A DNA stretch of 64,000 nucleotides from an uncultured Methylopila sp. (GTDB taxonomy: Bacteria; Pseudomonadota; Alphaproteobacteria; Rhizobiales; Methylopilaceae), in the NCBI GenBank assembly GCA_902168115.1, contig CABHPB010000082.1, forward strand, positions 124,001 to 188,000. Direction: 5' to 3'. The notes under the pieces are model-generated. The model saw only the letters and a program-made list of their open reading frames with translations, ran no database searches and was not told the origin of the DNA. This document shows, one piece after another, positions 9,046-64,000 of this stretch (position 1 is the stretch's first letter; the number at the start of each line of letters is the position of its first letter). The translations under genes and the position numbers were made by a program.

Positions 9046-10445
9046 CGAAGCCCCCCGGCCCGCGCCCGGTCCGCGCCGGCCGAGCCCTCCTCGGCGAGCG
9101 AGCCGCCGAAGGCGTCGAACACGGCGCGCGCCTTGGTCAGCGTCTCGTCATACTCGGCCGCCGGGTCCGACAGCGCCGTGATGCCGCCGCCGGCCGCGAA
9201 CACAGCCTTGCCCTTCGAGAGCGTCGCAGTGCGGATCGCGATGTTGAAGTCGGCGTCGCCCGAAAAGCCGATCCAGCCGATCGAGCCGCAATAGACGCCG
9301 CGGGCGTAGCGCTCGAGCTCGGTGATGATCTCCATCGCCCGCAGCTTCGGCGCGCCGGTGATGGAGCCGCCCGGAAAGCTGGCGCGCAGAAGATCCGTGA
9401 CGCCGAGACCGTGCCTGAGGCGTCCGGTGACGACCGAGACGAGGTGGTGGACCGAGGCGTAGGTCTCCAGCCCGCAGAGTTTCGGGACTTCGACCGAGCC
9501 CGGCCGGCAGACCCGCGACAGGTCGTTGCGCAGGAGGTCGACGATCATGACGTTCTCGGCGCGGTCCTTCTCACTGTCGAGCAGAGCGCGGGAGGAGGCG
9601 CCGTCGGCGTGCGGGTTGGCCCAGCGCTTGGATGTGCCCTTGATCGGCCGCGCCTCGACATGGCCGGCGTCGACGCACACGAACCGCTCGGGCGAGGACG
9701 AGCACACGGTGACGTCGCCGAAGGCGAGATAGGCCGCGAAGGGCGCGGCGTTGCGCGACCTGAGGCGCCGGTAGAAGGTCCAGGCGTCGAATCCGGCCGG
9801 CAGGTCCGCGAGAAAGCGCTGGGCGATGTTGGCCTGAAAGATGTCGCCGGCGAGCACGTATTCGACGGTCCGCGCGATCGCCTCGATGTAGTCGCCGCGC
9901 GAGAAATTCGAGCGGAAGCTGAGCGCCGGCTGGACGGGCGAGGCCTGCCTCGGGGCCGGCCGCTCCAGCGCCTCCAGCACGGCGGCGGCGCGCGCCTTCG
10001 ACCGCGCCTCGCGGGCGTCAGCGTCGGCCTCGGGAGCGCCGGTTGAGATCAGCCAAGCCCGGCCCTCGACATGGTCGCAGGCGATCACCCAGTCATAGAG
10101 CGGCAGGATCGCGTCCGGAACGCCGAGGTCGTCGACCTCGGCTTGCGGCAACGTCTCCAACCGCCGGCCGAACTCGTAGGAGATGAAGCCGATCGCGCCG
10201 CCCTGGAACGGCGGCAGGTCGGGGCGGCGTTCGGCGCCGGGGACGGCGAGCGCGTCCTTCAGCTCTGCGAGAAGATCGCCCCCGCCGCTCGCCTCCAGCA
10301 CCGCGTAAGGGTCGGCGGCGACGTAGGAGTAGCGGCCGAGCGCCGAATGCGGCATCGCGCTGTCGAGAAAGGCGAGATGCGGCAGCCCTGCGAGCCTCTC
10401 GGCGATCGCGGGCATGTCGGTCGTGGAAAGCTCGTGAACCTGCAT
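9042..10445 (-). CDS. pabB: Aminodeoxychorismate synthase component I
   Basis: 467-residue chorismate-binding enzyme that makes 4-amino-4-deoxychorismate. The motif RPIKGTSKR contains the PIKGT lysine that distinguishes PabB from anthranilate synthase TrpE (PIAGT). Other signatures are ENVMIVDLLRNDL, FPGGSITGAPKLRAMEII and YCGSIGWIGF. The N-terminal lobe (about 1-150) carries FQGGAIGFISYEFGR. First gene of the pabBAC operon, divergent from the antiporter gene. Confidence 0.95.
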   Translation of the reverse strand: MQVHELSTTDMPAIAERLAGLPHLAFLDSAMPHSALGRYSYVAADPYAVLEASGGGDLLAELKDALAVPGAERRPDLPPFQGGAIGFISYEFGRRLETLPQAEVDDLGVPDAILPLYDWVIACDHVEGRAWLISTGAPEADADAREARSKARAAAVLEALERPAPRQASPVQPALSFRSNFSRGDYIEAIARTVEYVLAGDIFQANIAQRFLADLPAGFDAWTFYRRLRSRNAAPFAAYLAFGDVTVCSSSPERFVCVDAGHVEARPIKGTSKRWANPHADGASSRALLDSEKDRAENVMIVDLLRNDLSRVCRPGSVEVPKLCGLETYASVHHLVSVVTGRLRHGLGVTDLLRASFPGGSITGAPKLRAMEIITELERYARGVYCGSIGWIGFSGDADFNIAIRTATLSKGKAVFAAGGGITALSDPAAEYDETLTKARAVFDAFGGSLAEEGSAGADRARAGGLR

Positions 10446-10632
10446 TGCGCCGCTCGCGGTCGGCCGCGCGCGTGACGGCCGGATGACCGCTACATAATCG
10501 CGGACGACGCATCCGTCATGAGCGCCTTAAGACGCGGGCGCCCGCGCAAGCCCATGACGACGCTGAGCACTTGCTCCGGCTCACCCGGAGCGGCCAAAGT
10601 GCGGACTGCTTCCCGCGAAGGCTTTTTCCCGA

Positions 10633-12465
10633 ATGGACCACGGCTCCTCCTCCGGCATGCTGCTCGGCGCGCTGATCTTCCTGATCGCGGCGGTGATCGC
10701 GGGCCCGCTCGCACGCCGCTTCGGCCTCGGCGTCGCGGTCGGCTATCTCGCGGCGGGCGTGGTGATCGGGCCGAAGGTCGCCGGCTTCTTCCAGGACACG
10801 ACCTCGATCCTGCATGTCGCCGAGATCGGCGTCGTCATGCTGCTGTTCCTGATCGGTCTGGAGCTGAGGCTCGAACGCCTGATCGCGCTGCGTCGGCTGG
10901 TGATCGGGCTCGGCGGGCTGCAGATCGCCGTGACGGCGGTCACGCTGACCGGCGCGCTCTGGGCCTTCGGCTACGCCCCGCGCGCGGCTCTCGCCGTCGG
11001 CCTCGCCCTCGCCTTCTCCGGCACCGCGCTCGCGCTTCAGATTCTGGAGGAGCGCGGCCACCTCAATCGCAGCTACGGCGAGAAGACGTTCTCGACCCTG
11101 CTCGCGCAGGACATCGCCGTGGTGCCCGCGCTCGCGCTCGTGCCGATCCTCGGCGGCGGAAGCGGACATGAAGGCGGCTGGACCGAGGCGCTGGCCTCGG
11201 CTGCGATCGGCGCGGGCGCGCTCGCCGGAATAGTGGTCGCGGGCCGCTACCTGCTCGACCCGATGTTCAAGCTGCTCGCCGGCGTCGGCGCGCGCGAGGT
11301 GATGACGGCGGCGGCTCTGCTCGTCGTGCTCGGCGCGGCCGAGGTCGCGAGCCTTGCGGGGCTGTCCATGGCGATGGGCGCGTTCCTCGCCGGCGTGCTG
11401 CTCGCCGGCTCGTCCTACCGCCACGAGCTCGAGGCCGACGTCGAGCCGTTCCGCGGCCTGCTGATCGCGCTGTTCTTCATGGGCATCGGCATGACCATCG
11501 ACCTTGCGGTCGTGGCGGCGAACTGGGCGGTGCTGGCCGCCGGCGTCGTCGTCTATCTGGCGCTCAAAGTGGCGGTCGCCGCCGCGCTCGCCCGCGTCTT
11601 CGGCGCGACCTTCGGCGACGCGCTGCGGGTCGGCGCGCTGCTCGCGGCGGCCGGCGAGTTCGCCTTCGTGCTGATCCCGCTCGCCCAGACCCACGGGCTG
11701 ATCGAGCCGGGCTCCGCCAGCATGCTGTCGGCGCTCGCCGCGCTCAGCCTCGTGCTCGCCCCGGCGGTCGTGCGTCTCGCCGAGTGGGCCGCCGACCGCT
11801 CCGAGCCGAAGAAGGCCGTCCCGGAGGAGGACTTCTCCGACGCCAAGGGCCAGGTCCTCGTCGTCGGCTTCGGCCGCGTCGGCCAGATCGCCGCCCAGCT
11901 GCTGCTGGCCGAAGGCGTCGAGACCACCCTGATCGACGCCAACCCGCAGCGCGTCGAGCAGGCCTCGCGCTTCGGCTTCAAGGTCTATTACGGCGACGGC
12001 TCGCGGCTCGACGTGCTGCGCGCCGCCGGCGCCGGCGACGCGCGCGCGGTGCTGGTCTGCGTCGACGACCAGGAGGCGACCAAGCGGATCGTCGAGATGA
12101 TGCGGCAGAGTTTTCCTCTGACCGAACTGGTCGTGAAGGCCTACGACCGCGGCCACGCGCTCGACCTCTACGGCCTCGGCGTCGAGAACGTCGTCCGCGA
12201 GACCTTCGAGAGCGCGCTGGTGCTCGGCCGGCAGGCGCTGGAGGCGGTCGGCGTCGACCCTGAGCGCGCCGCCGAGATCGAGGCGGACGTGCGGCGACGC
12301 GACGCGCAGCGGCTCGAGATCCAGCGGGTCGACGGCATCACCGCCGGGCGGCACCTGTCCTACACCAACAAGCCGACGCCCGAGCCGCTCTCGATGCCGA
12401 AGCGCAAGGGCGGCAAGATCGACGAGGACGTCATGGCCCCGCAGGCGGCGGAGGCCTCGGCGTGA
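10633..12465 (+). CDS. KefB/KefC-type monovalent cation:proton antiporter (CPA2)
   Basis: 610-residue inner-membrane antiporter. Residues 1 to about 390 form 12-13 hydrophobic helices with the CPA2 features (LLFLIGLELRLERL, ALAFSGTALALQILEERG, FFMGIGMTIDL). Residues about 400-520 are a cytosolic TrkA-N/RCK domain with a Rossmann motif (VLVVGFGRVGQIAAQLL) and an acidic nucleotide ribose ligand (LIDANPQRV). The family exports K+ (or Na+) in exchange for H+, often gated by glutathione adducts. No ancillary KefF/G gene is adjacent. A charged tail of about 50 residues follows the RCK domain. Confidence 0.92.
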   Translation: MDHGSSSGMLLGALIFLIAAVIAGPLARRFGLGVAVGYLAAGVVIGPKVAGFFQDTTSILHVAEIGVVMLLFLIGLELRLERLIALRRLVIGLGGLQIAVTAVTLTGALWAFGYAPRAALAVGLALAFSGTALALQILEERGHLNRSYGEKTFSTLLAQDIAVVPALALVPILGGGSGHEGGWTEALASAAIGAGALAGIVVAGRYLLDPMFKLLAGVGAREVMTAAALLVVLGAAEVASLAGLSMAMGAFLAGVLLAGSSYRHELEADVEPFRGLLIALFFMGIGMTIDLAVVAANWAVLAAGVVVYLALKVAVAAALARVFGATFGDALRVGALLAAAGEFAFVLIPLAQTHGLIEPGSASMLSALAALSLVLAPAVVRLAEWAADRSEPKKAVPEEDFSDAKGQVLVVGFGRVGQIAAQLLLAEGVETTLIDANPQRVEQASRFGFKVYYGDGSRLDVLRAAGAGDARAVLVCVDDQEATKRIVEMMRQSFPLTELVVKAYDRGHALDLYGLGVENVVRETFESALVLGRQALEAVGVDPERAAEIEADVRRRDAQRLEIQRVDGITAGRHLSYTNKPTPEPLSMPKRKGGKIDEDVMAPQAAEASA

Positions 12466-52510: not shown

Positions 52511-55189
52511 TCAGGCCGAAATCGCCTCCGGAACCCGCATGGCGGCTAGCATGCGGCGGATCTCCGGCAGGCAGGAGCCGCAGTTCGTGCCCGCCTTCGT
52601 CGCTGACCCGACCGCGGCTGCGTCGCAGGCGCCAGTCATGATGGCGCTCTCGATTACCCCCTTCGCGACACCATGGCAGGCGCAGACAAGAGGTCCGAGC
52701 GAGGCGCCGTCGCTGGCGCGGCCGGCGAGCAGCAGCCCGCGGGTCTCGCTTTCGTCCAGCGACTGGCCGAGCCGCCCGCGCAGGTAGGTCCATGCGCTTT
52801 CCTGTCGTCCCGGGCCGACGAACAGGCAGGCCTGCAGCAGGCCGCCACGGAAAACCGCCGCCCGATGGCGGCCACGGCGCGCATCGACGAATTCGACGAC
52901 CTCGTCGCCGGGGTCCAGATCCGGGATCAGGTCCTCGAGTCGGACTTGGTCGTCGGTCGCGAAAAGAATCCCCGTTCCGTCTGGTACGGCGGCGGTCGCC
53001 CACCATGCGCCATCCGGCTTTTCGAGCGCGCCGCGCGAGAGCGCGAAGCCCTGGCGCTCGAACCGCGCGGGCCGGACCGAAGCCGCCGTCGACTTCGCGT
53101 CGGGCTGTCCGGAGATCGGATCGACGCGCGCGTGGACGAGCGCGCCGATCAGGCCGGACGACGAGGTCTCCTGGGTCCAGTGGATCGCGGCGAACAGCGC
53201 GCCGTCGCGCGCCTCCGGCGTGACCCGCGCGCGCAGCGTCGCCTCGCCATGGGCCGTGGCGACGGTCGCGAAGCCGCCGTCGACGACTCCTGCGGCTTGG
53301 GCGTCGACGGTCGAGATTTCGAGGAACGGCTCCGGCAGATGGCTCGACAGGCGCGGGCTTTTCCCGGTGCGCGTCATCGTGTGCCACTGGTCGCGGATCC
53401 GGCCGGTGTTGAGACGCAGCGGGAAGTCGGCGGACAGGGTCGCCGCGGCCTGCGGCGCCGCGACGGCGACGAAGCGGCCCTTGCCGTCGGCGGTGTAGAA
53501 GCCGCCCTTGGCGAAGAACCGCGTCTCGGTCCGCGCCGTCCCCTTGCGCGCCGGCCACTGCACCGGCTGCAGGCGATCGTAGTCGCGGGTGTCGAGGCTC
53601 GCGAGCGCGCCGATGTCGAAGTCGCGCGCGCCGTCGTTCTCAAAGGCGGAGAGCGCCGCGTGCTCGCGGAACACCTCGCCGACGGTGCGCCAGCCGAAAG
53701 CCTCGCCATAGCCAAGGCGCTTGGCCACCTGCGCGATCGCCCACCAGTCCGGCCGAGCCTCGCCGGGCAGCGCAAGGAACGGCCGCTGCCGGGAGATGCG
53801 CCGCTCGGAATTGGTGACCGTGCCGTCCTTCTCGCCCCAGGCGGCGGCCGGCAGGCGGATCTTCGCGCCGGCCGCGAGCGTGTCGTTGGAGGCGACGTTC
53901 TCCGAGACGACGAAATGGTCGAGCCTGCCGAGCGCTTCAGCGACCGCGCCGGCGCGCGGCAGCGAGGCCGCCGGGTTGGTGCCCATCACCCAGAGCGCAC
54001 GAATCTCGCCGCGCGCGACCGCCTCGAACATGTCGACGGCTTTCAGACCAGGCGCTTTCGCCATGCGCGGCGCGTCCCAGAACCGACCGACCTTGTCGAC
54101 CGACTCCGCGTCGAAGCCCATATGGGCGGCGAGCATGTTGGCGAGCCCGCCGACCTCGCGCCCGCCCATGGCGTTGGGCTGGCCGGTCAGCGAGAAGGGT
54201 CCCATGCCCGCCTTTCCGATGCGGCCTGTCGCAAGGTGGCAGTTCAGGATGGCGTTGACCTTGTCGACGCCGTCGGCCGACTGGTTCACGCCCTGGCTAT
54301 AGAGCGTGACCGTGCGCTCCGTTTCGGCGAACATCGCGAAGAAGGCGGCGACGTCTGCCTCGCAGACGCCGCAGGCCTTCGCCGTAGCGGCGACACCGGG
54401 CGCGATCTCGCGCGCCCGGGCGAGCGCTTCGTCGAACCCTGACGTGTGCGCATGCACATAGGCGGGATCGATCCGTCCCGCGTCGGCGAGATGGACGAGC
54501 AGGCCGGAGAACAGCGCGACGTCGCTGCCGCCCGCGATCTTGAGGTGGAGGTCCGCCTCCTCCGCCGTCGCCGAGACGCGCGGATCGATCACGACCATCT
54601 TCGTGCCGCGCTCGGCCTTCGCCGCCAGCATGCGCTGGTAGAGCACCGGGTGACACCAGGCGGCGTTCGAGCCGGTGAAGACGATCAGGTCGGCGGATTC
54701 TAGGTCGCGATAGGTCCCCGGAACCGTGTCGGATCCGAACGCGCGGACATGCCCGGCGACCGAGGACGACATGCAGAGCCGGGAGTTGGTGTCAACGTTC
54801 GCCGATCCAAGGAAGCCCTTGAACAGCTTGTTAGCCGCATAATAGTCCTCGGTGAGGAGCTGGCCCGACAGATAGATCGCGATCGCTTTCGGCCCGTAGG
54901 TCTCGAGCGTCTGGCGGAACCCCTTGGCGACCGCGTCGAGCGCCTCGTCCCAGCTCGCGCGCTCGCCATCGATCTCCGGATGCAGAAGCCGGCCCTCAAG
55001 CGAGAGCGTCTCGCCGAGCGCGGACCCCTTCGAGCACAGCCGCCCGAAGTTCGACGGATGGTCGGGATCGCCCGCCACCGTCGCGCCGCCCGCCCGGTCG
55101 GGCTGCGCAAGCACCCCGCAGCCGACCCCGCAATAGGGGCAGGTGGTCGCGATCGGCGCCGGGTTCGGATCGGCGGCGTGCACGTTCAT
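52511..55189 (-). CDS. nasA: Assimilatory nitrate reductase catalytic subunit with C-terminal BFD-like domain
   Basis: 892 residues. Start at 55189 (MNVHAADPNP). The N-terminal [4Fe-4S] motif is CPYCGVGCGVL followed by NFGRLCSKG. The molybdopterin domains include TNSRLCMSSSVAGHVRAFGSDTVPG, FTGSNAAWCHP, and the C-terminal cofactor-binding segment RLNTGRIRDQWHTMTRTGKSPRL. The last 60 residues are a BFD-like [2Fe-2S] domain (LVCACHGVAKG...TNCGSCLPEIRRML). This cytosolic bis-MGD enzyme reduces nitrate to nitrite. Last gene of the reductase operon; electrons probably come from the CysJ-like or FAD protein. Confidence 0.95.
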   Translation of the reverse strand: MNVHAADPNPAPIATTCPYCGVGCGVLAQPDRAGGATVAGDPDHPSNFGRLCSKGSALGETLSLEGRLLHPEIDGERASWDEALDAVAKGFRQTLETYGPKAIAIYLSGQLLTEDYYAANKLFKGFLGSANVDTNSRLCMSSSVAGHVRAFGSDTVPGTYRDLESADLIVFTGSNAAWCHPVLYQRMLAAKAERGTKMVVIDPRVSATAEEADLHLKIAGGSDVALFSGLLVHLADAGRIDPAYVHAHTSGFDEALARAREIAPGVAATAKACGVCEADVAAFFAMFAETERTVTLYSQGVNQSADGVDKVNAILNCHLATGRIGKAGMGPFSLTGQPNAMGGREVGGLANMLAAHMGFDAESVDKVGRFWDAPRMAKAPGLKAVDMFEAVARGEIRALWVMGTNPAASLPRAGAVAEALGRLDHFVVSENVASNDTLAAGAKIRLPAAAWGEKDGTVTNSERRISRQRPFLALPGEARPDWWAIAQVAKRLGYGEAFGWRTVGEVFREHAALSAFENDGARDFDIGALASLDTRDYDRLQPVQWPARKGTARTETRFFAKGGFYTADGKGRFVAVAAPQAAATLSADFPLRLNTGRIRDQWHTMTRTGKSPRLSSHLPEPFLEISTVDAQAAGVVDGGFATVATAHGEATLRARVTPEARDGALFAAIHWTQETSSSGLIGALVHARVDPISGQPDAKSTAASVRPARFERQGFALSRGALEKPDGAWWATAAVPDGTGILFATDDQVRLEDLIPDLDPGDEVVEFVDARRGRHRAAVFRGGLLQACLFVGPGRQESAWTYLRGRLGQSLDESETRGLLLAGRASDGASLGPLVCACHGVAKGVIESAIMTGACDAAAVGSATKAGTNCGSCLPEIRRMLAAMRVPEAISA

Positions 55190-55202: not shown

Positions 55203-56846
55203 TCAGTAGACGTCGGCCTGGTAGCGGCCGGCCTTCTTGAGGTCGGCGATGTAGGCCTTCGCGCCGTCGCCCTTGCCACCGTGCTCCGCCGCGATGTCGA
55301 TCAGCGCCTTCTCGACGTCCGCCGCCATGCGTTTGGCGTCGCCGCAGACGTAGAAATGGGCGCCCGTCTCCAGCCAGCTCCAGAGTTCGGCTCCGGCCTC
55401 GCGCATCCGGTCCTGGACATAAACCTTGGCGTCGCCGTCGCGCGACCAGGCGAGAGAGAGCTTCGTCAGCGCGCCGGTCTCCTGCAGCTCGGCGATCTCC
55501 TCGCGATAGAAGAAGTCGGTCGCCTCGCGCTGGTGCCCGAAGAACAGCCAGGCGCCGCCGGCCGCCTTGGCCGCGCGCCGCTCGCGCAGGAAGGAGCGGA
55601 ACGGCGCGACGCCTGTGCCTGGCCCGACCATGATGATCGGGACGTCGCCGCTCTTCGGCAGCCCAAAGCCGTGCGCCTTCTGGACGTAGACCTTGAGCTT
55701 CGCGCCCGGCTCGACCCGGTCGGAGAGATAGGTCGAGGCGAGGCCGAGGCGGGTGCGCTCACCGATCCGGTAGCGCACCGCGTCGACGGTGAGGCTGACC
55801 CTGCCGGGATCGGCCGAGAGCGCCGAGGAGATCGAGTAGAGCCGCGGCTGCAAGGGTTCGAGCGTCGCGAGCAGGTCGGCGACGGGGGGCGTCGCGGCCG
55901 GGAACTTCTCCAGCGCCGCGAGGACGTCGAGCGTCTCGAGGTCGCCGTCCGGGTTCTCGCCCTCGGCGAGCCGCATCAGCTTCGCCTTGTCGGAAGCGTC
56001 CTCGACATGGACGCTGAGCAGCTCGAACAGCGCGTCAGGCGCTGCGCCGAGCGAGACCTTTTCGGACAGCCAGGTCGCAAGCGGCAGCGTCTGCCCGTCA
56101 TGGCTGACGGGCGCGTCCGGCGCGACGCCGAGGCGCGTCGCGAGATCGGCCGCGAGCGACGGGCAGTTGGTCGCGAACAGGCCGAAGCTGTCGCCCGGCT
56201 CGTAGGTCAGGCCGCACGCGCTGAGGTCGATCTCGACGTGGTTGGTCTCCTTGGAAGACCCCTCGCCGTTGAGCTTCAGGCGCGACAGGAAGGTCGCCTC
56301 GACCGGCGTCTCGCGCGAGCGGCCGGGCTCGGCCGCGGCGGGCTGGGCCGAAGCCGGCGCCGCCTCGGCCGGCTTCGTCGCGGGCGCCGCGCCCTCGAGC
56401 TCGGCGGCGAGCTTCTTCAGCATGCGCTGCGTTTCCTTGCCGCCGGGCACGCATAGATTGAGCTTTGTCTCCTCGCCGGTCGCGATCGCCAAGGAATAGG
56501 TGTCGCAGAGATAGCCGCACTGGCCGCAGTCCTGCTGGGCCATGGCCGCCATCATGCGGCGCTTCAGCGGCTTGCCGTCCGCGAGCTGCATGCGCTCGTC
56601 GATCGGCATGGAGGCGTCATGCCACGGCGCGCCGTCGTCCTCCTCCTCGGCGGGAGCGGCCTGCGGGGCGCCCGGCAGGGGCTCGCCGAGCAAAGCGGTC
56701 GCCGCGTCGCGCGACAGCGCCTGCACTCCGCCGTCCATCGAGAGCAGGCCGGCGAAGAAGCCGTTCAGCCAGGAACGCTGTTCGGGGCTGAACGGCGCGT
56801 TCTCCGGCACCAGCGGCGGCAGCATCATCTGGGTTGGCGCGGACAT
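55203..56846 (-). CDS. CysJ-like FAD/NADPH reductase with [4Fe-4S] domain
   Basis: 547 residues. An N-terminal helical segment (FSPEQRSWLNGFFAGLL) and a Fe-S domain of the RnfB type (CGQCGYLCDTYSLAIATGEETKLNLC) are followed by an Ala/Pro linker and the FAD/NADPH module of sulfite reductase flavoprotein: LTYEPGDSFGLFATN, PRLYSISSAL, HGFGLPKSGDVPIIMVGPGTGVAPFRSFL and FYVCGDAKRMAADVEKAL. The flavodoxin (FMN) domain of true CysJ is absent. I infer an electron donor from NAD(P)H to NirA and/or NasA. Its stop is 13 bases before the nasA ATG. Confidence 0.9.
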   Translation of the reverse strand: MSAPTQMMLPPLVPENAPFSPEQRSWLNGFFAGLLSMDGGVQALSRDAATALLGEPLPGAPQAAPAEEEDDGAPWHDASMPIDERMQLADGKPLKRRMMAAMAQQDCGQCGYLCDTYSLAIATGEETKLNLCVPGGKETQRMLKKLAAELEGAAPATKPAEAAPASAQPAAAEPGRSRETPVEATFLSRLKLNGEGSSKETNHVEIDLSACGLTYEPGDSFGLFATNCPSLAADLATRLGVAPDAPVSHDGQTLPLATWLSEKVSLGAAPDALFELLSVHVEDASDKAKLMRLAEGENPDGDLETLDVLAALEKFPAATPPVADLLATLEPLQPRLYSISSALSADPGRVSLTVDAVRYRIGERTRLGLASTYLSDRVEPGAKLKVYVQKAHGFGLPKSGDVPIIMVGPGTGVAPFRSFLRERRAAKAAGGAWLFFGHQREATDFFYREEIAELQETGALTKLSLAWSRDGDAKVYVQDRMREAGAELWSWLETGAHFYVCGDAKRMAADVEKALIDIAAEHGGKGDGAKAYIADLKKAGRYQADVY

Positions 56847-56851
56847 GTGCG

Positions 56852-58663
56852 TCAGGCCTTCTCGAGTTCGAACATGGTCTTGAGCGCGTCGATCTCGTGG
56901 CGACGCGTGAAGGCGGCGAAGGTCTCGGCCTCGCTCTCGCGGTTGGCGAGGTAGCCGCGCAGCATCTTCTCGACGACGGCCGGGCAGTCCTCGCCCTTCA
57001 CTTCGGAGACGAGGTCGCGGGCGATGGTGGCGTCCGTCCCGAAGCCGCCGCCGACGAGGATGTTGAAGCCGTCGACGGTGTCCTCCTCGCCGACCGGCAC
57101 GCGCGCGCCGATCAGGCCGATGTCGCCGATGTAGTGCTGGGCGCAGGAGTGGTGGCAGCCGGTGGCGTGGATGTTGATCGGCGTGTCGACGGTAAGGCCG
57201 ATCCCGTCGATGTGGGTCGCGATCTGGTCGGCGAAGCCCTTGGTGTCGGCGGCGGAGAACTTGCAGCCGCGATTGCCGGTGCAGGCGACGAGCCCGGCGC
57301 GGACGTTCGAGCAGGCGGTCTCCAGCCCGATCGCCCGGATCTTCTCCTCGACCTGCGCCACGAACTCGTCGCGCACGCCCGAGATCAGCAGGTTCTGCCA
57401 GACGGTCAGGCGGATGTCGCGGTCGCCATATTCCTGCGAGATGTCGGCGAGCGCCCGCATCTGGTCGCAGGACATGCGGCCGAGCTTCAGCGACACGCCG
57501 ATCCAGTTGTGGCCCTTCTGGCGCTGCGGATGGACGCCGATATGGGCCATGCGGTCGCTTTCGGGCCGCGGCGCCAGCGCGCCGGCCGGCGCGCGCACGA
57601 GCCTGGCGCCGAGAACCTTCTCGACCTCCTCGAGAAACTTCTCGAAACCCCAGGCGTCGAGCACGTATTTCAGCCGCGCCTTGGCGCGGTCGCTACGGTC
57701 GCCGTGCGAGATGAAGACGCGCACGATCGCGTCGGCGACCTTGTTGGCCTCACCGAGCGGCACGATCACGCCGGTGTCGCGCGCGAAGTCGCGGTGGCCG
57801 GTGATGCCGCCGAGCGCGAGACGCCACCAGACGCCCGGCTCGATCCCGTGGCCGTCCAGCACCTCGACGGCCTGGAAGCCGATGTCGTTGGTGTCCTCGA
57901 GCGCGGCGATCCGGCCGGCGCCGTCGAAGGCGACGTTGAACTTGCGCGGCAGGCCGTAGAGCGAGCGGTCGTTGAGGATGTGGTGGTGCCACTCCTTGGC
58001 GTAGGGGCGCGTGTCGACCAGCTCCTGCGGGTCGACGCCCGCCGTCGGCGTGCCGGTGACGTTGCGGATGTTGTCGGCGCCGGAGCCGCGCGCGGTGAGC
58101 CCGATGTCGACGAGGCCCTCGAGGAAGGCCGGCCCGTCCTTCGCGCCGATCTCGCGCACCTGAAGGTTGGCGCGGGTCGTCACGTGGCTGTAGCCGCCGC
58201 CGAACTGCTCCGCGAGGTCCGCGACCCCGCGGAACTGCCACGCCTTCAGGATGCCGTTGTGGATCCTGAGGCGGCACATATACGCGTCTTGCGTTGGCCC
58301 GACATAGAACAGGCCGTGGAAGCGGACGCGAAAGTCGTCGATCGATTTCGCGTACTTGCCTTCGGCCGCGAGCCCCTTGAAGCGGGCGTAGAAGTCGAAC
58401 GGATGCTCGTCGCGCTTGGCCTTCTCCTGAGCGACCAGCTTCTTGCCGGCCTTCTCCTGCCGCGCCATCGCCTCCAGATGGATCGCGTCCGGGCCGGAGG
58501 GCGCCTGCTCCTGCGGCGCCGGCAGGGACTGGCCGGCGCCCTGCCCCTGGAACGGCACCTGCCCGCCGAGCCCCGGCGCGCCGCGTGAGCCGCGGATCGC
58601 CTGGACGCCGGAGATGAAGCCTTCGAGGTAGCGCTTCTGGTCGGGGGTGAAATCGCCGCTCAT
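56852..58663 (-). CDS. nirA: NirA-family assimilatory nitrite reductase (siroheme/[4Fe-4S])
   Basis: 603 residues. Two ferredoxin-like and two siroheme domains: RVRFHGLFYVGPTQDAYMCRLRIHNGIL (first half-domain) and LTVWQNLLISGV. The cluster/siroheme Cys pattern is CTGNRGCKFS and CHHSCAQHYIGDIGL. An N-terminal helical segment FTPDQKRYLEGFISGVQAI closely resembles that of the CysJ-like partner. Reduces nitrite to ammonium with six electrons. Between the FAD oxidoreductase and CysJ-like genes with gaps of 10 and 5 bases, so one transcription unit. Confidence 0.94.
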   Translation of the reverse strand: MSGDFTPDQKRYLEGFISGVQAIRGSRGAPGLGGQVPFQGQGAGQSLPAPQEQAPSGPDAIHLEAMARQEKAGKKLVAQEKAKRDEHPFDFYARFKGLAAEGKYAKSIDDFRVRFHGLFYVGPTQDAYMCRLRIHNGILKAWQFRGVADLAEQFGGGYSHVTTRANLQVREIGAKDGPAFLEGLVDIGLTARGSGADNIRNVTGTPTAGVDPQELVDTRPYAKEWHHHILNDRSLYGLPRKFNVAFDGAGRIAALEDTNDIGFQAVEVLDGHGIEPGVWWRLALGGITGHRDFARDTGVIVPLGEANKVADAIVRVFISHGDRSDRAKARLKYVLDAWGFEKFLEEVEKVLGARLVRAPAGALAPRPESDRMAHIGVHPQRQKGHNWIGVSLKLGRMSCDQMRALADISQEYGDRDIRLTVWQNLLISGVRDEFVAQVEEKIRAIGLETACSNVRAGLVACTGNRGCKFSAADTKGFADQIATHIDGIGLTVDTPINIHATGCHHSCAQHYIGDIGLIGARVPVGEEDTVDGFNILVGGGFGTDATIARDLVSEVKGEDCPAVVEKMLRGYLANRESEAETFAAFTRRHEIDALKTMFELEKA

Positions 58664-58673
58664 CGCCGCCTCC

Positions 58674-59918
58674 TCACGCCGCCGCCACGAAGGACCGGCC
58701 GAAGGCCAGGTCGTCGCGCATCTCGCCGAGCGGCGCGCCCGAGGCGATCAGGTCGAGATACCAGAGCGCGTCCGAGGCCTCGCCGACTAGGATCGCCCCC
58801 ACCAGGCGGTCGTCGCGCATCACGAATTTCCGGTAATGGCCATGGCCGGGATCGGCGAGGGTGACGATGTCGTCGCCCTCCTCCGCCTCGACGGCGCCGG
58901 CCGAGAACACCGAGACGCCGGAGACCTTGAGATTGGTGGAGAGCAGGCTGCCGGCGTAGGCCGCCTCCGCCTCGCCTGCGAGATGGCGCGCGAGCGTCTT
59001 CGCATGCTCGTAGGCCGGCGCGACGAGGCCGTAGACGACGCCGGCATGCTCGGCGCATTCGCCGATCGCGTAGACGTTCGCGTCGGAGGTCCGCATGGCG
59101 TCGTCGACGACGATCCCGCGCTTGACGTCCAGCCCCGCCTCGCGCGCAAGGCCGGCGTTGGGCCGCACGCCGCAGGACATGACGATCATGTCGGCCGGCA
59201 GAACCTCGCCGCTCGCGAGCCTCAGGCCCTCGACGCGGGCCTCGCCGACGATCTCGGCGCTCTGGGCGGACAGGGCGAAGCCGATGCCCTTCTTCTCGAG
59301 CTGGCGCTTGAGCGTCGCGGCCGCCTTCAGGTCGAGCTGGCGCTCCATGATCTTGTCGAAGATGTGCACGACCGTCGTCGCGCAGCCGAGCTTGGCGAGG
59401 CCGTAGGCCGCCTCCAGCCCGAGCAGCCCGCCTCCGATGACGACGGCGCTCCTGCCCTCGCCCGAGAGCCTGGCGAGCATGGCTGCGTCGGCCCGGTCGC
59501 GGAAGGTCACGACCTCCGGCAGATGCCCGCCCGGCAGCGGCAGGCGGATCGGTTCGGAGCCCGTCGCCAGCACCAGCCGGTCGTAGGTCGCCCAGCGACC
59601 GTCGGTCAGCCAGACGGTCTTGCTGGCGAGGTCGATCCGAGAGACCTGCGCGTCGGTGAACAGGCGGAAGCCGCTCTGGCCGTACCAGGAGCGATCTTTC
59701 AGCGTCAGGTCCTCGTCGGCGGCCTCGCCGGCGAGCAGGGAGGACAGCAGCACGCGATTGTAGGCCGCGTCCTTCTCCGCCCCGAGCACGGTGACGTCGT
59801 ATTTGCCGGGGCACGCGGCGTTGAGCTCCTCGAGGAGCTTCAGCGCGGCCATGCCGGCGCCAACCAGCACGATACGTTCGCGCTCCGGCCGTTTCGTCGA
59901 TGCAGCTTTCCCGCTCAT
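58674..59918 (-). CDS. NAD(P)/FAD oxidoreductase (NirB N-terminal-like)
   Basis: 414 residues. Start at 59918 (MSGKAASTKR). FAD motif RIVLVGAGMAALKLLEEL, NAD(P) motif AVVIGGGLLGLEAAYGLAKLG, and second FAD motif TSDANVYAIGECAEH are intact, with a C-terminal domain (AFGRSFVAAA end). It matches the first part of NADH nitrite reductase NirB and related assimilatory reductases without the siroheme part, so it probably transfers electrons from NAD(P)H to NasA or NirA. First gene of the operon controlled by the leader at 60002-60112. Confidence 0.9.
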   Translation of the reverse strand: MSGKAASTKRPERERIVLVGAGMAALKLLEELNAACPGKYDVTVLGAEKDAAYNRVLLSSLLAGEAADEDLTLKDRSWYGQSGFRLFTDAQVSRIDLASKTVWLTDGRWATYDRLVLATGSEPIRLPLPGGHLPEVVTFRDRADAAMLARLSGEGRSAVVIGGGLLGLEAAYGLAKLGCATTVVHIFDKIMERQLDLKAAATLKRQLEKKGIGFALSAQSAEIVGEARVEGLRLASGEVLPADMIVMSCGVRPNAGLAREAGLDVKRGIVVDDAMRTSDANVYAIGECAEHAGVVYGLVAPAYEHAKTLARHLAGEAEAAYAGSLLSTNLKVSGVSVFSAGAVEAEEGDDIVTLADPGHGHYRKFVMRDDRLVGAILVGEASDALWYLDLIASGAPLGEMRDDLAFGRSFVAAA

Positions 59919-60001: not shown

Positions 60002-60052
60002 AAAAAGCCGCTGTCTCGACCCGCGCATTCGTCTGCGTGTCGGTTCAGCGGC
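60002..60052 (-). terminator. Leader terminator before the nitrate/nitrite reductase operon
   Basis: On the minus strand GCCGCTG (60046-60052) pairs with CAGCGGC (60007-60013), extended inside by CGAC/GTCG, and is followed by TTTTT (60002-60006). It lies about 85 bases before the FAD oxidoreductase start and after two hairpins of the ANTAR type, so transcription should stop here unless antitermination occurs. Confidence 0.82.
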
Positions 60053-60062
60053 GATGCTGGCG

Positions 60063-60112
60063 CGCCCCTCGATGGGCGAATGGTCCTGGCGTCAGCGTCG
60101 ACGGGGAACCAC
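60063..60112 (-). promoter_or_regulatory. Tandem-hairpin ANTAR (NasT/NasR-type) leader, reductase operon
   Basis: Reading the minus strand, hairpin 1 (60110-60082) has outer stem GGTTC/GGACC and inner stem CGTC/GACG with a six-base loop GACGCT. Hairpin 2 (60078-60063) has a perfect CGCCC/GGGCG stem with loop ATCGAG. A six-base loop with A at position 1 and G at position 4 is the known ANTAR recognition rule; hairpin 2 fits exactly, hairpin 1 has G at position 1. The terminator follows. Same arrangement as at 63543-63589. Confidence 0.75.
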
Positions 60113-60123
60113 GAGACAGTTCA

Positions 60124-60139
60124 TTCAAGAGGCATGCCA
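60124..60139 (-). promoter_or_regulatory. Sigma-54-like promoter of the reductase operon
   Basis: TGGCATG, four bases, TTGAA on the minus strand fits the -24/-12 layout (consensus TGGCACG-N4-TTGCA/T) except A for C at -12. An element with the same spacing lies at 63603-63618. The predicted start (about 60113) falls exactly at the base of leader hairpin 1. Confidence 0.6.
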
Positions 60140-60215
60140 GCCGCCTGAACCGGCGGAATTTCCTGGAGCTTGAACGGATCGACCTTCGGCTCGCGCCGTC
60201 GTCGAACCGTTCGGG

Positions 60216-60232
60216 CGCACGGCGATTGTGCA
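60216..60232 (-). promoter_or_regulatory. NtrC-type dyad upstream of the reductase operon
   Basis: On the minus strand TGCAC-N7-GTGCG, one base from the perfect TGCAC-N7-GTGCA dyad bound by NtrC. It lies about 110 bases before the predicted transcription start, a usual enhancer distance for a sigma-54 promoter. It sits next to the nrt operon terminator. Confidence 0.55.
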
Positions 60233-60240
60233 GTGCGCCC

Positions 60241-60272
60241 AAAACGGGCGCCGGAGGCGACCTCCGGCGCCC
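60241..60272 (-). terminator. Intrinsic terminator of the nrtABC operon
   Basis: GGGCGCCGGAGG (60246-60257) and CCTCCGGCGCCC (60261-60272) form a perfect 12-bp stem with a three-base loop; on the minus strand it is followed by GTTTT. It lies 9 bases past the ATPase stop and separates the import operon from the control region of the reductase operon. Confidence 0.8.
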
Positions 60273-60280
60273 GGGGACCG

Positions 60281-61078
60281 TCAGGCCGCCTCGACGAAGC
60301 GGTGGCGCTCGTAGAGGAACTTCAGCACCGCCGCGCGCGCCGCGATGTAGGCGCGGTCCGAGACCAGCTCGAGCCGGTTGCGCGGCCGCTCCAGCGGCAC
60401 CTCCAGAACCTCGCCGATGCGGGCCGAGGGCCCGTTGGTCATCATCACGATGCGGTCCGAGAGCAGCACGGCCTCGTCGACGTCGTGCGTGATCATCAGC
60501 ACGGTGTTGTTGAGCTCGGTCTGGATCTGCATGACCTGGTCCTGCAGATGGGTGCGAGTCAGCGCGTCGAGCGCGCCGAACGGCTCGTCGAGCAGCAGCA
60601 CCTTCGGCTGCATGGCGAGCGCCCGGGCGATGCCGATGCGCTGCTTCATGCCGCCCGAGATTTCGGACGGACGCCGGTCCTTGGCGTGCTCCATGTGCAC
60701 GAGCTTGAGCTTGTGCATCGTCCAGTCGTGGCGCTCTGCCTTGGACTTCGTCTTGCCGAACACCTTGTCGACCGCGAGCGCGACGTTCTCGTAGCAGGTC
60801 AGCCACGGCAGCAGGCTGTGGTTCTGGAACACGACCGCGCGGTCGGGGCCCGGCTCGTCCACCACCTTGTCCTGAAGGAAGACGACGCCCTTCGTCGCCT
60901 TGGTGAGGCCGGCGACGATATTGAGCAGCGTCGACTTTCCGCAGCCGGAATGGCCGATGATCGAGATGAACTCGCCCTCGGCGACCTCCAGCGAGACGTC
61001 CTTCAGAACCTCGTTGGTCATCGCCCCGCGCGAGAACGACTTGTCGACATGCTCGATCTTGAGAAACGGCTTGGTCAT
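60281..61078 (-). CDS. nrtC: Nitrate ABC transporter ATP-binding protein
   Basis: 265-residue NrtD/TauB-type ATPase, the single-domain form. Walker A GHSGCGKST, Q-loop region VVFQNHSLLPWLTCYENVALAV, signature ISGGMKQRIGIARAL, Walker B VLLLDEPFGALD and switch VLMITHDVDEAV are complete. Start at 61078 (MTKPFLKIEH). It energises uptake of nitrate/nitrite through the permease encoded 14 bases upstream. Symbol by position; cyanobacterial NrtC is a longer fusion, so 'nrtD' would also be defensible. Confidence 0.92.
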   Translation of the reverse strand: MTKPFLKIEHVDKSFSRGAMTNEVLKDVSLEVAEGEFISIIGHSGCGKSTLLNIVAGLTKATKGVVFLQDKVVDEPGPDRAVVFQNHSLLPWLTCYENVALAVDKVFGKTKSKAERHDWTMHKLKLVHMEHAKDRRPSEISGGMKQRIGIARALAMQPKVLLLDEPFGALDALTRTHLQDQVMQIQTELNNTVLMITHDVDEAVLLSDRIVMMTNGPSARIGEVLEVPLERPRNRLELVSDRAYIAARAAVLKFLYERHRFVEAA

Positions 61079-61092
61079 GGCTTTGCCCACCG

Positions 61093-62007
61093 TCACGCGT
61101 TGGCCGTGCCGCGCGTGACCGCGACGGCGATGAGGGCGACGATCCGGTCGAGCACGAAGCCGACCGCGCCGACGTAGACGAGCGCGAGGATGATGTCGCT
61201 GATGCGCGACGAGTTCCACGCGTCCCAGATGAAGAAGCCGATGCCGACGCCGCCGATCAGCATTTCGGCCGCGACGATTGCGAGCCACGACAGGCCAATG
61301 CCGATGCGAAGACCGGTGAAGATGTAAGGCGCGGCCGCCGGCAGCATGATCTTCGAGAAGTATTCGATCGGGTTGAGGCGCAGCACTTCCGCGACGTTCT
61401 TGTAGTCCTGCGGAATGTTGCGGATGCCGACCGCGGTGTTGATGATGACCGGCCAGATCGCGGTGATGAAGATCACGAAGATCGCCGAGGGCTCGCCGTC
61501 GCGGAAGGCGGCCAGCGACAGCGGCAGCCAGGCGAGCGGCGGGATGGTGCGCAGCACCTGGAAGACGGGGTCGAGCCCGCGCATCGCCCAGGTCGAGGCG
61601 CCGACCAGCGCGCCGAGGCCGATGCCGACGACGGCCGCGAGCGCATAGCCGAGCGCGACGCGCTTCAGCGAGGCGTAGAGCTGCCAGCCGAGGCCCTTGT
61701 CGTTGCCGCCGTTGTCATAGAACGGGTTGGCGATCAGCTCCCACGTGTCCGTGACCACTCGCGAGGGCGAGGGCAGCGAGGAGGTCGGCGACGAGCACAG
61801 CACCTCCCAGAACAGCAGCAGCGCGCCGACCGTCAGCAGCGGCGGAATGAAGGTCGCGGCGGCGTCCATGGCGCGCGTCTTCATGCGCGGCCCGAAGAAC
61901 GGCTTCTTCGGCGTCGGCAGCGCGACCACCCTGGCCGAGGCCGGGGCCTCCGCCGGCTGGGCGGGCTTGAGCGGCGTCACGTTGGACGCCGCGGCGGTCT
62001 GTGTCAT
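61093..62007 (-). CDS. nrtB: Nitrate ABC transporter permease
   Basis: 304-residue inner-membrane permease of the NrtB/TauC type. Start at 62007 (MTQTAAASNV). A long cytosolic N-terminus (about 60 residues, Ala/Pro-rich) precedes six helices. The EAA loop reads NVAEVLRLNPIEYFSKIMLPAAAPYIFTGLRIGIGLSW, and IPPLAWLPLSLAAFRDGEPSAIFVIFITAIWPV is a family signature. Second gene of the nrt operon. Confidence 0.93.
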   Translation of the reverse strand: MTQTAAASNVTPLKPAQPAEAPASARVVALPTPKKPFFGPRMKTRAMDAAATFIPPLLTVGALLLFWEVLCSSPTSSLPSPSRVVTDTWELIANPFYDNGGNDKGLGWQLYASLKRVALGYALAAVVGIGLGALVGASTWAMRGLDPVFQVLRTIPPLAWLPLSLAAFRDGEPSAIFVIFITAIWPVIINTAVGIRNIPQDYKNVAEVLRLNPIEYFSKIMLPAAAPYIFTGLRIGIGLSWLAIVAAEMLIGGVGIGFFIWDAWNSSRISDIILALVYVGAVGFVLDRIVALIAVAVTRGTANA

Positions 62008-62080
62008 CGGGCTCTCCGCGATAATTCGGGTGTCGCCTGCGGGTCGCCGCGCGGCCGGAAGGGCCACGCGGCGCGCTCCG

Positions 62081-63406
62081 TCAGACCATGCGCTTGATGT
62101 CGAGGCTGGCGAGGTAATCGCCGGGCTTCTCGGGGTCGAAGACCTTGCCGTCGAAGAACTTCTCGACGCCGCGCGAGGTCGAGGCCGGGAGGTCGGTCGC
62201 GCCGAGCTCCTTGGCGGCCTCGCGCCACAGATCCTCGCGGTTGACCTTGTCGATCAGGGCCTTGGTGTCAGTCGTCCCCGGCAGATAGCCCCAGCGGATG
62301 TCCTCGGTCAGGAACCAGAGGTCATGGCTCTTGTAGGGATAGGACGCGTGGTCCTTCCAGAAGTGCATGATGTAGGGGCTGTTCTCGACGAGGGGCTTGC
62401 CCGCGCCGTAGTCGAACTTGCCCTTCATGCGGTCGGCGATGTCGGCGACCGGCGCGCCGATCCAGTTGCGCTTGGCGCAGATGGCGGCGAGCTCTTCCTT
62501 GTTCTCCGTCTTCTCGCACCACTGCTGCGCCTCCATCACGGCGAGCAGCAGCGCCTTGGCGGCCCTCGGGTTCTGCTCGACCCAGTCGGTGCGCATCGCG
62601 AACGACTTCTCGGGGTGCTTGTCCCAGAGCTCGCCCGTGGTGATCGCGGTGTAGCCGATCTTCTGGTTCTTGAGCTGCTCGTTCCAGGGCTCGCAGACGC
62701 AGAAGGTGTCCATAGTGCCGACCTTCATGTTCGCCACCATCTGCGGCGGCGGGACGACGATGGTCTGGATGTCCTTGTTCGGGTCGACGCCGCCGGCGGC
62801 GAGCCAGTAGCGGATCCAGAGGTCGTGCGTGCCGCCCGGGAAGGTCATGGCGGCCTTCACGTCCTTGCCCGACGCCTTCTTCTTCTCGAGCGCGGCCTTG
62901 AAGGGCGAGGCGTCGAGGCCGAGCTGGAGGTCGGCGTATTCCTGGCCGACCGAGATGCACTGGCCCGCGACGTTGAGGCGGGCGAGGATCGACATCGGCG
63001 TGCCGGCCTTGTTCTGGGTCACGGCGCCCGACGTGATCAGATACGGCATGGGGGTGAGGATGTGCGCGCCGTCGATGCCGCCGCCGCCCGAGCCCAGCAC
63101 GATGTTGTCGCGCGTCGTGCCCCAGGACGACTGCTTGGTGACCTCGACTTCGGTCATGCCGTATTTGTCGAAGAAGCCCTTTTCCTTGGCCACGAACAGC
63201 GGACCGGCGTCCGTCAGCGCGATGTAGCCGAGCTTGGCCTTGGTGGTCTCGGGACCCGCGCCCTGGGCGAACACGCCGGACGGGGAGAGGGTTCGTGCGG
63301 CCGCGAGCGTGGCGGCGGCGTAGCCGCCGGCCTTCAGCACGCTGCGGCGGCTGACGCCGGACAGAAGGGCGTTCGCGACGTCTGGCGTCTTGGCGTCGTG
63401 GCTCAT
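62081..63406 (-). CDS. nrtA: Nitrate ABC transporter substrate-binding protein (NrtA/CmpA family)
   Basis: 441 residues. Start at 63406 (MSHDAKTPDV). A twin-arginine signal (SRRSVLKAGGYAAATLAAART) suggests folded export. The NrtA/CmpA fold is clear: KAKLGYIALTDAGPLFVAKEKGFFDKYG, GTMDTFCVCEPWNEQLKNQKIGYTAITTGELWDKHPEKSFAMRTDWVEQNP, FLTEDIRWGYLP. It binds nitrate in the periplasm for NrtBC. First gene of the operon, preceded by its own ANTAR leader. Confidence 0.94.
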   Translation of the reverse strand: MSHDAKTPDVANALLSGVSRRSVLKAGGYAAATLAAARTLSPSGVFAQGAGPETTKAKLGYIALTDAGPLFVAKEKGFFDKYGMTEVEVTKQSSWGTTRDNIVLGSGGGGIDGAHILTPMPYLITSGAVTQNKAGTPMSILARLNVAGQCISVGQEYADLQLGLDASPFKAALEKKKASGKDVKAAMTFPGGTHDLWIRYWLAAGGVDPNKDIQTIVVPPPQMVANMKVGTMDTFCVCEPWNEQLKNQKIGYTAITTGELWDKHPEKSFAMRTDWVEQNPRAAKALLLAVMEAQQWCEKTENKEELAAICAKRNWIGAPVADIADRMKGKFDYGAGKPLVENSPYIMHFWKDHASYPYKSHDLWFLTEDIRWGYLPGTTDTKALIDKVNREDLWREAAKELGATDLPASTSRGVEKFFDGKVFDPEKPGDYLASLDIKRMV

Positions 63407-63483
63407 TTCCGGCTCCGTTGGCGGCCCGCGGGCCGCGTGATCCACAAAACGAACCGGCTCCAGTCGATCGGATGCCGGCGAAC

Positions 63484-63541
63484 AAAAAAGCCGCTGTCTC
63501 GACGCGCGGAGTCGCGTGTCGGTTCAGCGGCGTTGCTGGCG
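63484..63541 (-). terminator. Leader terminator before the nrt operon
   Basis: On the minus strand GCCGCTG (63535-63541) pairs with CAGCGGC (63490-63496), with an inner CGAC/GTCG extension, and is followed by TTTTTT (63484-63489). It is about 78 bases before the nrtA start and nearly identical to the terminator at 60002-60052. Confidence 0.82.
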
Positions 63542-63542
63542 T

Positions 63543-63592
63543 GCCCCTCGATGGGCGTTGCGGTCCAAGCGTCAGCGCCGACGCGAACCACG
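63543..63592 (-). promoter_or_regulatory. Tandem-hairpin ANTAR (NasT/NasR-type) leader, nrt operon
   Basis: Hairpin 1 (63589-63562, minus) has outer stem GGTTC/GGACC and inner stem GCGTC/GACGC with loop GGCGCT. Hairpin 2 (63556-63543) has stem GCCC/GGGC with loop ATCGAG, identical to the loop in the other leader. Stem bases differ between the two copies while pairing is kept, which supports RNA function. The terminator follows directly. Confidence 0.75.
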
Positions 63593-63602
63593 CGACCTGT
63601 CA

Positions 63603-63618
63603 TTCAAGACGCGTGCCA
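63603..63618 (-). promoter_or_regulatory. Sigma-54-like promoter of the nrt operon
   Basis: TGGCACG-N4-TTGAA on the minus strand, followed by TGA; the -24 element is perfect and the -12 element has A for C. The predicted start (about 63592) falls immediately before hairpin 1. Matches the copy at 60124-60139. Confidence 0.62.
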
Positions 63619-63725
63619 GTTCGGTCGCGAAGCCGACTTCGGTTCAATTTGGAGAGTTCGAAGCGAATTGGCCGAACTTCGACCGCATGGGCGCCGACAT
63701 GATCGCGCGCCCGGCTTTTGTGCAG

Positions 63726-63742
63726 TGCACTAAACTTGTGCA
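63726..63742 (-). promoter_or_regulatory. NtrC-type dyad upstream of the nrt operon
   Basis: TGCACTAAACTTGTGCA is a perfect TGCAC-N7-GTGCA dyad, the NtrC-binding consensus, about 140 bases before the predicted transcription start and between nasS and the promoter. A further half-site (TTTTGTGCAG) adjoins it. Supports nitrogen-limitation control of nitrate uptake. Confidence 0.68.
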
Positions 63743-63774: not shown

Positions 63775-64000
63775 TCAGCCGAGCTTCGATCCGATGGGAT
63801 CGGCGACCGACGGCGCGGAGATCCCGAGGGCGGCGTCGAAGACGTCGGCGCGATAGACCGAAGCCGCCAGCGCCTCCTCCTCGGGCCCACCCTTCGTCTG
63901 GCCCCAGCGGGCCATCTCGGCGTACAGCCAGCGCGCATGCCGCTCGTCGGGACGCATGGCGCCGTCCCGCGCGAAGACAAGATAGCGGCCGTCGTTGCGC
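63775..64000 (-). CDS. nasS: NasS-like nitrate sensor (partial, C-terminus)
   Basis: The last 75 residues of a gene that continues past the window end. The segment YLVFARDGAMRPDERHARWLYAEMARWGQ aligns with [30 protein letters not shown] near the C-terminus of the NrtA encoded just downstream. It is therefore an NrtA/CmpA-fold protein. Located immediately before an nrt operon with NasT-type leaders, it best fits NasS, the cytosolic nitrate sensor that sequesters NasT when nitrate is absent. Whether a signal peptide exists cannot be seen. A second NrtA is the alternative. Confidence 0.75.
   Translation of the reverse strand, partial: RNDGRYLVFARDGAMRPDERHARWLYAEMARWGQTKGGPEEEALAASVYRADVFDAALGISAPSVADPIGSKLG

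Follow-up and report, generated by a model that had tools for sequence, protein, structure and literature searches.

Two NasT-type attenuator leaders in the nitrate assimilation cluster of an uncultured Methylopila sp., the second probably acquired by duplication of a promoter-leader region

Why should one nitrate assimilation cluster carry two nearly identical transcription attenuators, and where did the second one come from? The question is raised by a 64,000-nucleotide stretch of an uncultured Methylopila sp. genome (GenBank assembly GCA_902168115.1, contig CABHPB010000082.1, positions 124001-188000; hereafter, the window), where the cluster, which starts just past the right edge, lies on the minus strand in the order nasT, nasS, leader N, nrtA, nrtB, nrtD, leader F, FAD oxidoreductase, nirA, cysJ-like gene and nasA. 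Leader N, the attenuator before nrtA, and leader F, the attenuator before the FAD-oxidoreductase operon, had been described in an earlier note on this DNA as near copies, and both were indeed located at those places on the minus strand (Table 1) with 85% identity from the -24 promoter-like element to the T-run. We consider it very probable that both are attenuators of the ANTAR type under NasT control, with a separate sigma-54-like promoter for each, and that the second arose by a duplication splitting one apparent operon.

In the published ANTAR model, two hairpins with six-base loops, P1 and P2, are required, and P2 acts as an antiterminator that is mutually exclusive with the terminator (PMC3369931, PMC3369936, PMC8934654). 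As judged from sequence and predicted pairing by the dual-hexaloop target definition of Ramesh et al. 2012, the two leaders belong to this published class: the hairpin numbered 2 in the earlier note is P1, and a hidden hairpin, exclusive with the terminator, is P2. In both window leaders, P1 and P2 are tandem hairpins with six-base loops and stems of at least 3 bp, and in each loop the first base is A and the fourth is G (A1/G4), namely ATCGAG and AACGCC in leader N and ATCGAG and ATCGCC in leader F. The A1/G4 rule, which the earlier note had claimed for its hairpin 2, is obeyed by P1 in all 16 leaders of the genus; P2 has G4 in all 16, with A1 in ten and G1 in six, and a linker of 2-4 nt separates the 4-bp stems of P1 and P2 in every one of them. 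The overlap is such that the end of the P2 loop, GCC, together with the 3' arm, GCTG, constitutes the terminator 5' arm, GCCGCTG, in both leaders. When the window leaders were cut before the terminator 3' arm, the predicted pair probability of P2 was 0.92-1.0, as opposed to 0.00 in the full leader, and five of the six leaders folded were predicted to behave in this way (P2 at 0.85-1.0 in the shortened transcript). Furthermore, P2 of the nrtA leader, AGCAACGCCGCUG, is similar to the sequence AGCAANGRRGCUY carried by P2 of Enterococcus faecalis (PMC3369931), the match being incomplete. The assignment to ANTAR/NasT-type attenuators made in the earlier note is hence retained, with the correction that the published functional pair is not hairpins 1 and 2 but hairpin 2 and the hairpin overlapping the terminator, which had been missed.

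The presence of nasT in the genome, on which the earlier assignment had been made to depend, was also confirmed: it lies beside the cluster, just past the right edge of the window, and its product contains an ANTAR domain (71.7 bits in Pfam; contig 188899-189057) together with a receiver domain at 23.4 bits, under the Pfam cut-off of 30.2. With this receiver-like and ANTAR-containing NasT and an NrtA-like sensor, NasS, encoded beside the nas genes, the locus has the sequence hallmarks of a NasS-NasT system; each of the 13 genomes of the genus has nasT-nasS upstream of its cluster, and the predicted start of NasS, MSLDRIKIGF, has no obvious signal peptide by eye.

A detector requiring an A1/G4 hexaloop hairpin and, after it, a second one overlapping the 5' arm of a terminator that has a run of four or more T reported exactly the two leaders on both strands of the window. 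Over 1.18 Mb (the window plus 94 loci), 19 rows were returned versus two in an equal-size first-order Markov control; 18 of them are at nas leaders, of which two re-read the window leaders via locus L003, and in L022 and L025 the first of the paired hairpins is hairpin 1; the 19th is a spurious one overlapping the L022 leader. Six leaders of the genus, the P2 loops of which start with G, are missed by this detector. A P2-like hairpin over a terminator was detected upstream of nrtA in 46 of 116 regions and upstream of the oxidoreductase gene in 6 of 74, versus 8 of 562 random segments and 2 of 570 Markov segments, where many of the 116 regions belong to Bradyrhizobium nrtA genes without nasT in the stretch examined, some of the 46 detections use a non-canonical hairpin (e.g., hairpin 1 in L020-L022), and some of the eight matches in random segments may be real leaders. 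As a side observation, the genome encodes one further ANTAR protein (contig C42; L004, ~8459-9988), which is AmiR-like by eye and gave no receiver domain match; no leader was reported by the P1/P2 detector within the 20 kb fetched around its gene.

Genomes were searched with a covariance model, R1, under which the two window leaders reach 117 and 102 bits. Nothing comparable was found by R1 elsewhere in the same genome, the third best match (30 bits) being the antisense of the nrtA leader and the next ones scoring 21.3, 18.7, and 18.2 bits; the P2/terminator pattern reported the same two places only, with three matches to its reversed control pattern. Among 397 genomes sampled from the order, 49 have an R1 match, including all 13 of the genus, and 30 of the 36 matched genomes outside the genus have cluster genes at the fetched locus. 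Methylobacterium and Methylorubrum are among the relatives with a leader before nrtA. The six loci without cluster genes are L051, L065, L071, L078, L082, and L084, of which L065, L078, L082, and L084 look false; in L051 (1501-1610, minus strand), hairpins resembling P1 and P2, followed by a T-run, make up an ANTAR-type leader ahead of an open reading frame (ORF) of ~390 aa, which is possibly an outer-membrane protein by eye and is none of the genes of the cluster.

How, then, did the second leader come to stand between nrtD and the oxidoreductase gene? The gene order is the same in all 13 genomes of the genus, and a leader precedes nrtA in all of them; a second leader in the nrtD-oxidoreductase gap is present in three only, namely the window's genome, G009, and G012. 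In the ten single-leader genomes, this gap measures tens of bases or fewer at its shortest and ~220 bp at its longest, and R1 found no leader in it. In a tree made from seven of the nine cluster proteins (the CysJ-like protein and NasA were left out), the three genomes form one clade with a FastTree support of 1.0, and G008 is its sister (0.95); in a leader tree, furthermore, all three second leaders fall to the same side of one branch (97/92). Homology extends into the flanks of the leader core, with 0, 3, and 0 of 300 shuffles scoring as high upstream and 0, 0, and 3 of 300 downstream for the window's genome, G009, and G012, respectively. Since the flanks match, what was copied is probably the intergenic region between nasS and nrtA (372-375 bp in the extracts) and not the hairpins alone, and, as far as can be told from these sequences, this region was probably duplicated once into the nrtD-oxidoreductase gap. 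The duplicated control cassette proposed in the earlier note is thus supported and can be placed on a tree. Gene conversion keeping the copies alike was considered and rejected for the window, its own two leaders being excluded as a clade (p 0.003), while for G012 the rejection is weak (p 0.035); in the window's genome, therefore, the copies have diverged without later homogenisation.

Several intergenic regions in relatives are also worth recording. In G010 (L085, ~10,020-11,310), ~1.3 kb of extra DNA lies between nasS and the nrtA leader, unlike in other members of the genus; palindromic, REP-like sequences occupy the nrtD-oxidoreductase gap of relatives without a second leader (L026, 13269-13421; L027, 13258-13388), and several relatives have ~150-260 bp between their reduction genes. 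In f28, a different family of the same order of which 15 genomes were searched, four genomes (G086, G121, G221, and G240; loci L050, L054, L070, and L168) have nrtA oriented divergently from the oxidoreductase-nirA operon. An ANTAR-type leader precedes the oxidoreductase gene in all four, and a P1-type hairpin with a terminator precedes nrtA in all three genomes read on that side; no canonical P2 over the terminator was found before nrtA in these three, and R1 is clear there only in G240 (32 bits; 19 bits in G221 and 15 bits in G121). If real, these paired leaders are independent of the duplication in the window.

The copied region would include a promoter. Allowing one mismatch, TGGCAYGNNTCTTGAAT, which we read by its consensus as a sigma-54 -24/-12 element, occurs exactly twice in the window, once ahead of each leader, and in none of 100 shuffles; its TGGCA is found in all 16 leaders of the genus. 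Further upstream, at a distance of 92-131 nt from the -24 element, 12 of 15 regions of the genus have a TGCAC site, which is in part a dyad; the second leader has an upstream TGCAC site in all three genomes that carry it. The dyads in the window resemble NtrC sites by consensus and are kept as a positional observation only.

By analogy with published relatives, such as Paracoccus denitrificans, NasT of which binds its nasA leader (PMC3795266), NasT binding, a response to nitrate, and dependence on sigma-54 and NtrC would be expected also here. In the absence of nitrate, NasT would be held by NasS, and RNA polymerase would make hairpin 1, P1, and P2, until closure of the terminator dissolved P2 and transcription stopped. 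With nitrate, the freed NasT would bind the hexaloops of P1 and P2 and keep P2 in place, so that transcription would read through into nrtABD or the reduction operon. Copying of the ~370-bp nasS-nrtA intergenic region to the place between nrtD and the oxidoreductase gene, for which the ancestor of the three related species is the simplest point in time, would have turned one apparent operon into two co-regulated ones. Since both copies keep a NasT-type target and the same promoter type, the two operons would most simply be expected to be induced together, each from its own promoter.

The second leader might alternatively work mainly as a gate or relay within one long nrtA-nasA transcript, to which the copied promoter contributes little. 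Four such terminators are interspersed in the E. faecalis eut locus (PMC3369931, PMC3369936), and the inverted repeat after nrtD, where the nrtABD transcript may end, is followed by no more than T4; against this, the second copy keeps the sigma-54-like element and, in all three genomes that carry it, an upstream TGCAC, and we regard the relay as possible but doubtful. It appears rather unlikely that the leaders have diverged in response so as to tune import and reduction separately, as the earlier note suggested. The window leaders do differ slightly, with T6 versus T5, P1 stems of 4 versus 5 bp, and predicted terminator hairpins of -26.2 (leader N) versus -23.1 (leader F) kcal/mol, but they share NasT-type hexaloops and the promoter type, and the energy difference has no consistent direction, being opposite in G012 (-25.9 versus -27.8 kcal/mol) and -23.9 versus -23.0 kcal/mol in G009. 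Control by the other ANTAR protein is conceivable in that this protein exists (39.5 bits), but its gene is on a different contig of the draft assembly whereas nasT-nasS accompanies the cluster throughout the genus, which makes such control very improbable. Strong GC stems, T-runs, and unremarkable folding z-scores would all fit sequences without a role in regulation, such as simple terminators or dispersed repeats; nas genes beside most of the matches outside the genus, hexaloop positions invariant within it, and a hidden P2 changing together with the terminator in some distant leaders leave this account hardly any credit. In the latter leaders, the P2 5' arm, the P2 3' arm (i.e., the terminator 5' arm), and the terminator 3' arm change jointly, reading CAGC/GCTG/CAGC, CGGC/GCCG/CGGC (L049, L080, and L083), or GAAGC/GCTTC/GAAGC (L077); the majority of leaders outside the genus retain CAGC/GCTG.

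Several results do weigh against NasT-controlled attenuators that arose by a single duplication. The covariance search in Rfam that the earlier note had proposed as a check lends no support, with no match at the gathering score in the window and none of the weaker ones (tfoR, snoRNAs, and others, all below that score) inside the leaders; ANTAR membership therefore rests on the published definition. Fold energies are not beyond those of shuffled sequences (z of -1.08 and -0.41 for the two leaders), and the nrtA leader of G012 is poorly formed in the prediction (P1, 0.14; P2, 0.11). The P1 and P2 stems are invariant in the genus, so that the case for pairing there comes from identity and from a small number of distant relatives. 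When hairpin 1, P1, and the terminator are taken together, further pair types exceed shuffles (18 versus 13.5, with 0 of 500 shuffles reaching 18), whereas pairs with double changes do not (5 versus 3.2, with 68 of 500 shuffles reaching 5). The statement in the earlier note that stem bases vary with pairing kept holds weakly between leaders N and F: there is one double change, from G-C to A-U at the top of the terminator stem, hairpin 2 gains one pair, and hairpin 1 loses one. In terms of origin, the leader tree is poorly resolved, a clade of all six leaders being neither found nor rejected (p 0.217), and the flank homology is marginal upstream in G009 and downstream in G012. The NtrC-like motif, furthermore, is not over-represented in the window (10 versus 12.75 expected).

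It is already known that a genome can have several NasT leaders and that a single cluster, E. faecalis eut, has four ANTAR leaders. Bradyrhizobium diazoefficiens has several predicted NasT-type leaders, with transport and nitrite reduction at separate loci (PMC6759348, PMC4724949). Its nosR, nirA, coxS, narK, and bjgb leaders and the nasA leader of P. denitrificans are like the present ones in the NasS-NasT system and in having leader hairpins before nitrate genes (PMC3795266, PMC5424462, PMC6759348, PMC4724949), whereas the leaders here are a within-cluster copy, 3.5 kb apart, splitting one apparent operon. The EutV leaders of E. faecalis share P1 and P2, the position of P2 over the terminator, and the A1/G4 loops (PMC3369931, PMC3369936, PMC8934654), but the signal and the sensor are different, and the available parts of their descriptions mention neither an extra upstream hexaloop hairpin nor a sigma-54 promoter. 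In Klebsiella oxytoca, the NasR-nasF leader also provides nitrate-responsive ANTAR attenuation of a nas operon with A1/G4 loops (PMC3369936), and Ntr activation of nas is a further likeness (PMC5424462); there, however, a one-component NasR and a single leader are described, as opposed to NasS-NasT and two leaders here. Among the matches listed for open-licence PMC papers, no title or abstract opening describes such a leader duplication. Close relatives with one versus two NasT-type leaders would constitute a natural experiment, in which an operon was split through copying of a whole promoter-attenuator region at a place that can be marked on a tree, and the natural variants (G1 in the loop, an extra hexaloop hairpin) would allow a test of the ANTAR recognition rule.

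The least explained feature of the leaders is hairpin 1. Its hexaloop reads (G or A)-N-C-G-N-N in all 16 leaders of the genus, with G1 in 13 and A1 in three, and both window loops break the A1 rule; in the second leader of G009, the pattern took the alternative frame GTCGAC instead of GACGAT, both of which have G1, C3, and G4. Hairpin 1 as the canonical P1 was rejected as the main reading, given that hairpin 2 sits 2-4 nt ahead of P2 and that its loop has A1 throughout the genus. An antiterminator formed between the hairpin-1 loop and the linker, considered by eye only, was likewise dropped, the complement being absent in G004, G007, and G011. We tentatively raise a three-site ANTAR leader in the genus, in which hairpin 1 would be an extra docking hairpin for NasT with a loop rule of purine-1/G-4 instead of A1/G4. 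A purine may suffice at loop position 1 in this lineage because P2 has G1 in six of the 16 leaders, and G4 is described as the sole base-specific contact (PMC8934654). If so, hairpin 1 would catch NasT early and pass it to P1/P2, extending the published "recruitment hairpin" model. In a different family, a nas leader (L077, ~1376-1495, minus strand) has three tandem A1/G4 hexaloop hairpins (AGCGCC, AACGAA, and AGAGCC) before the terminator and is a possible three-site ANTAR leader outside the genus.

Table 1. Leader elements, promoter-like sites, and genes of the nitrate cluster (coordinates are those of the window)
Feature	Position	Strand	Description	Basis
Leader N, hairpin 1	63560..63591	-	extra upstream hairpin, hexaloop GGCGCT	folding and pattern
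Leader N, P1	63543..63556	-	hairpin 2 of the earlier note; GCCC-ATCGAG-GGGC, loop A1/G4	
Leader N, P2	63525..63538	-	hidden putative antiterminator hairpin, CAGC-AACGCC-GCTG, overlapping terminator 5' arm	
Leader N, terminator	63484..63531	-	predicted intrinsic terminator, GCCGCTG...CAGCGGC and T6	
Leader F, hairpin 1	60080..60112	-	hexaloop GACGCT	
Leader F, P1	60063..60078	-	CGCCC-ATCGAG-GGGCG	
Leader F, P2	60046..60059	-	CAGC-ATCGCC-GCTG, overlapping terminator 5' arm	
Leader F, terminator	60002..60052	-	predicted intrinsic terminator and T5	
Sigma-54-like -24/-12 element before leader N	63602..63618	-	TGGCACGCGTCTTGAAT	pattern search
Sigma-54-like element before leader F	60123..60139	-	TGGCATGCCTCTTGAAT	pattern search
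NtrC-like dyad upstream of nrtA promoter	63726..63742	-	TGCACAAGTTTAGTGCA; second, weaker dyad at 63708-63724	
NtrC-like dyad upstream of second promoter	60216..60232	-	TGCACAATCGCCGTGCG	pattern search; chance caveat as for NtrC-like sites
nasS, 3' end	63778..64000	-	remainder of nasS and nasT beyond window edge, contig to ~189,480	
nrtA	62081..63406	-	nitrate ABC transporter substrate-binding protein, 441 aa	position ahead of nrtB/nrtD
nrtB	61093..62007	-	permease	TIGR01183, 328.5 bits
nrtD	60281..61078	-	ATPase	TIGR01184, 346.9 bits
Inverted repeat after nrtD	60241..60272	-	12 bp, perfect, with T4 tail; possible end of nrtABD transcript	read from sequence
FAD-dependent oxidoreductase gene	58674..59918	-	resembles N-terminal part of NirB, 414 aa	TIGR02374, 404.3 bits, below cut-off
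nirA	56852..58663	-	assimilatory nitrite reductase	NF007126, 951.9 bits
cysJ-like	55203..56846	-	CysJ-like flavoprotein	NF004859, 791.7 bits
nasA	52511..55189	-	likely assimilatory nitrate reductase (molybdoprotein), C-terminal NirB-like stretch	cluster position

As for the genes themselves, NrtB, NrtD, NirA, and the CysJ-like protein pass the NCBIfam cut-offs. The names NrtA, NasA, and NirB-like oxidoreductase were given because of sub-threshold matches and gene order: the nrtA product matches SsuA- and SaoX-type models only, both below cut-off, and the nasA product matches formate dehydrogenase alpha (444.8 bits) above NasC (390.8 bits) and NasA (368.9 bits), again all below cut-off. The inverted repeat after nrtD was not reported by the terminator scan, which needs five T. 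A nas cluster with the alphaproteobacterial gene order and an NrtA 74% identical to that of the window is also present in a record titled Streptomyces sp. AcH 505 (L110), where it is likely a contamination of that assembly.

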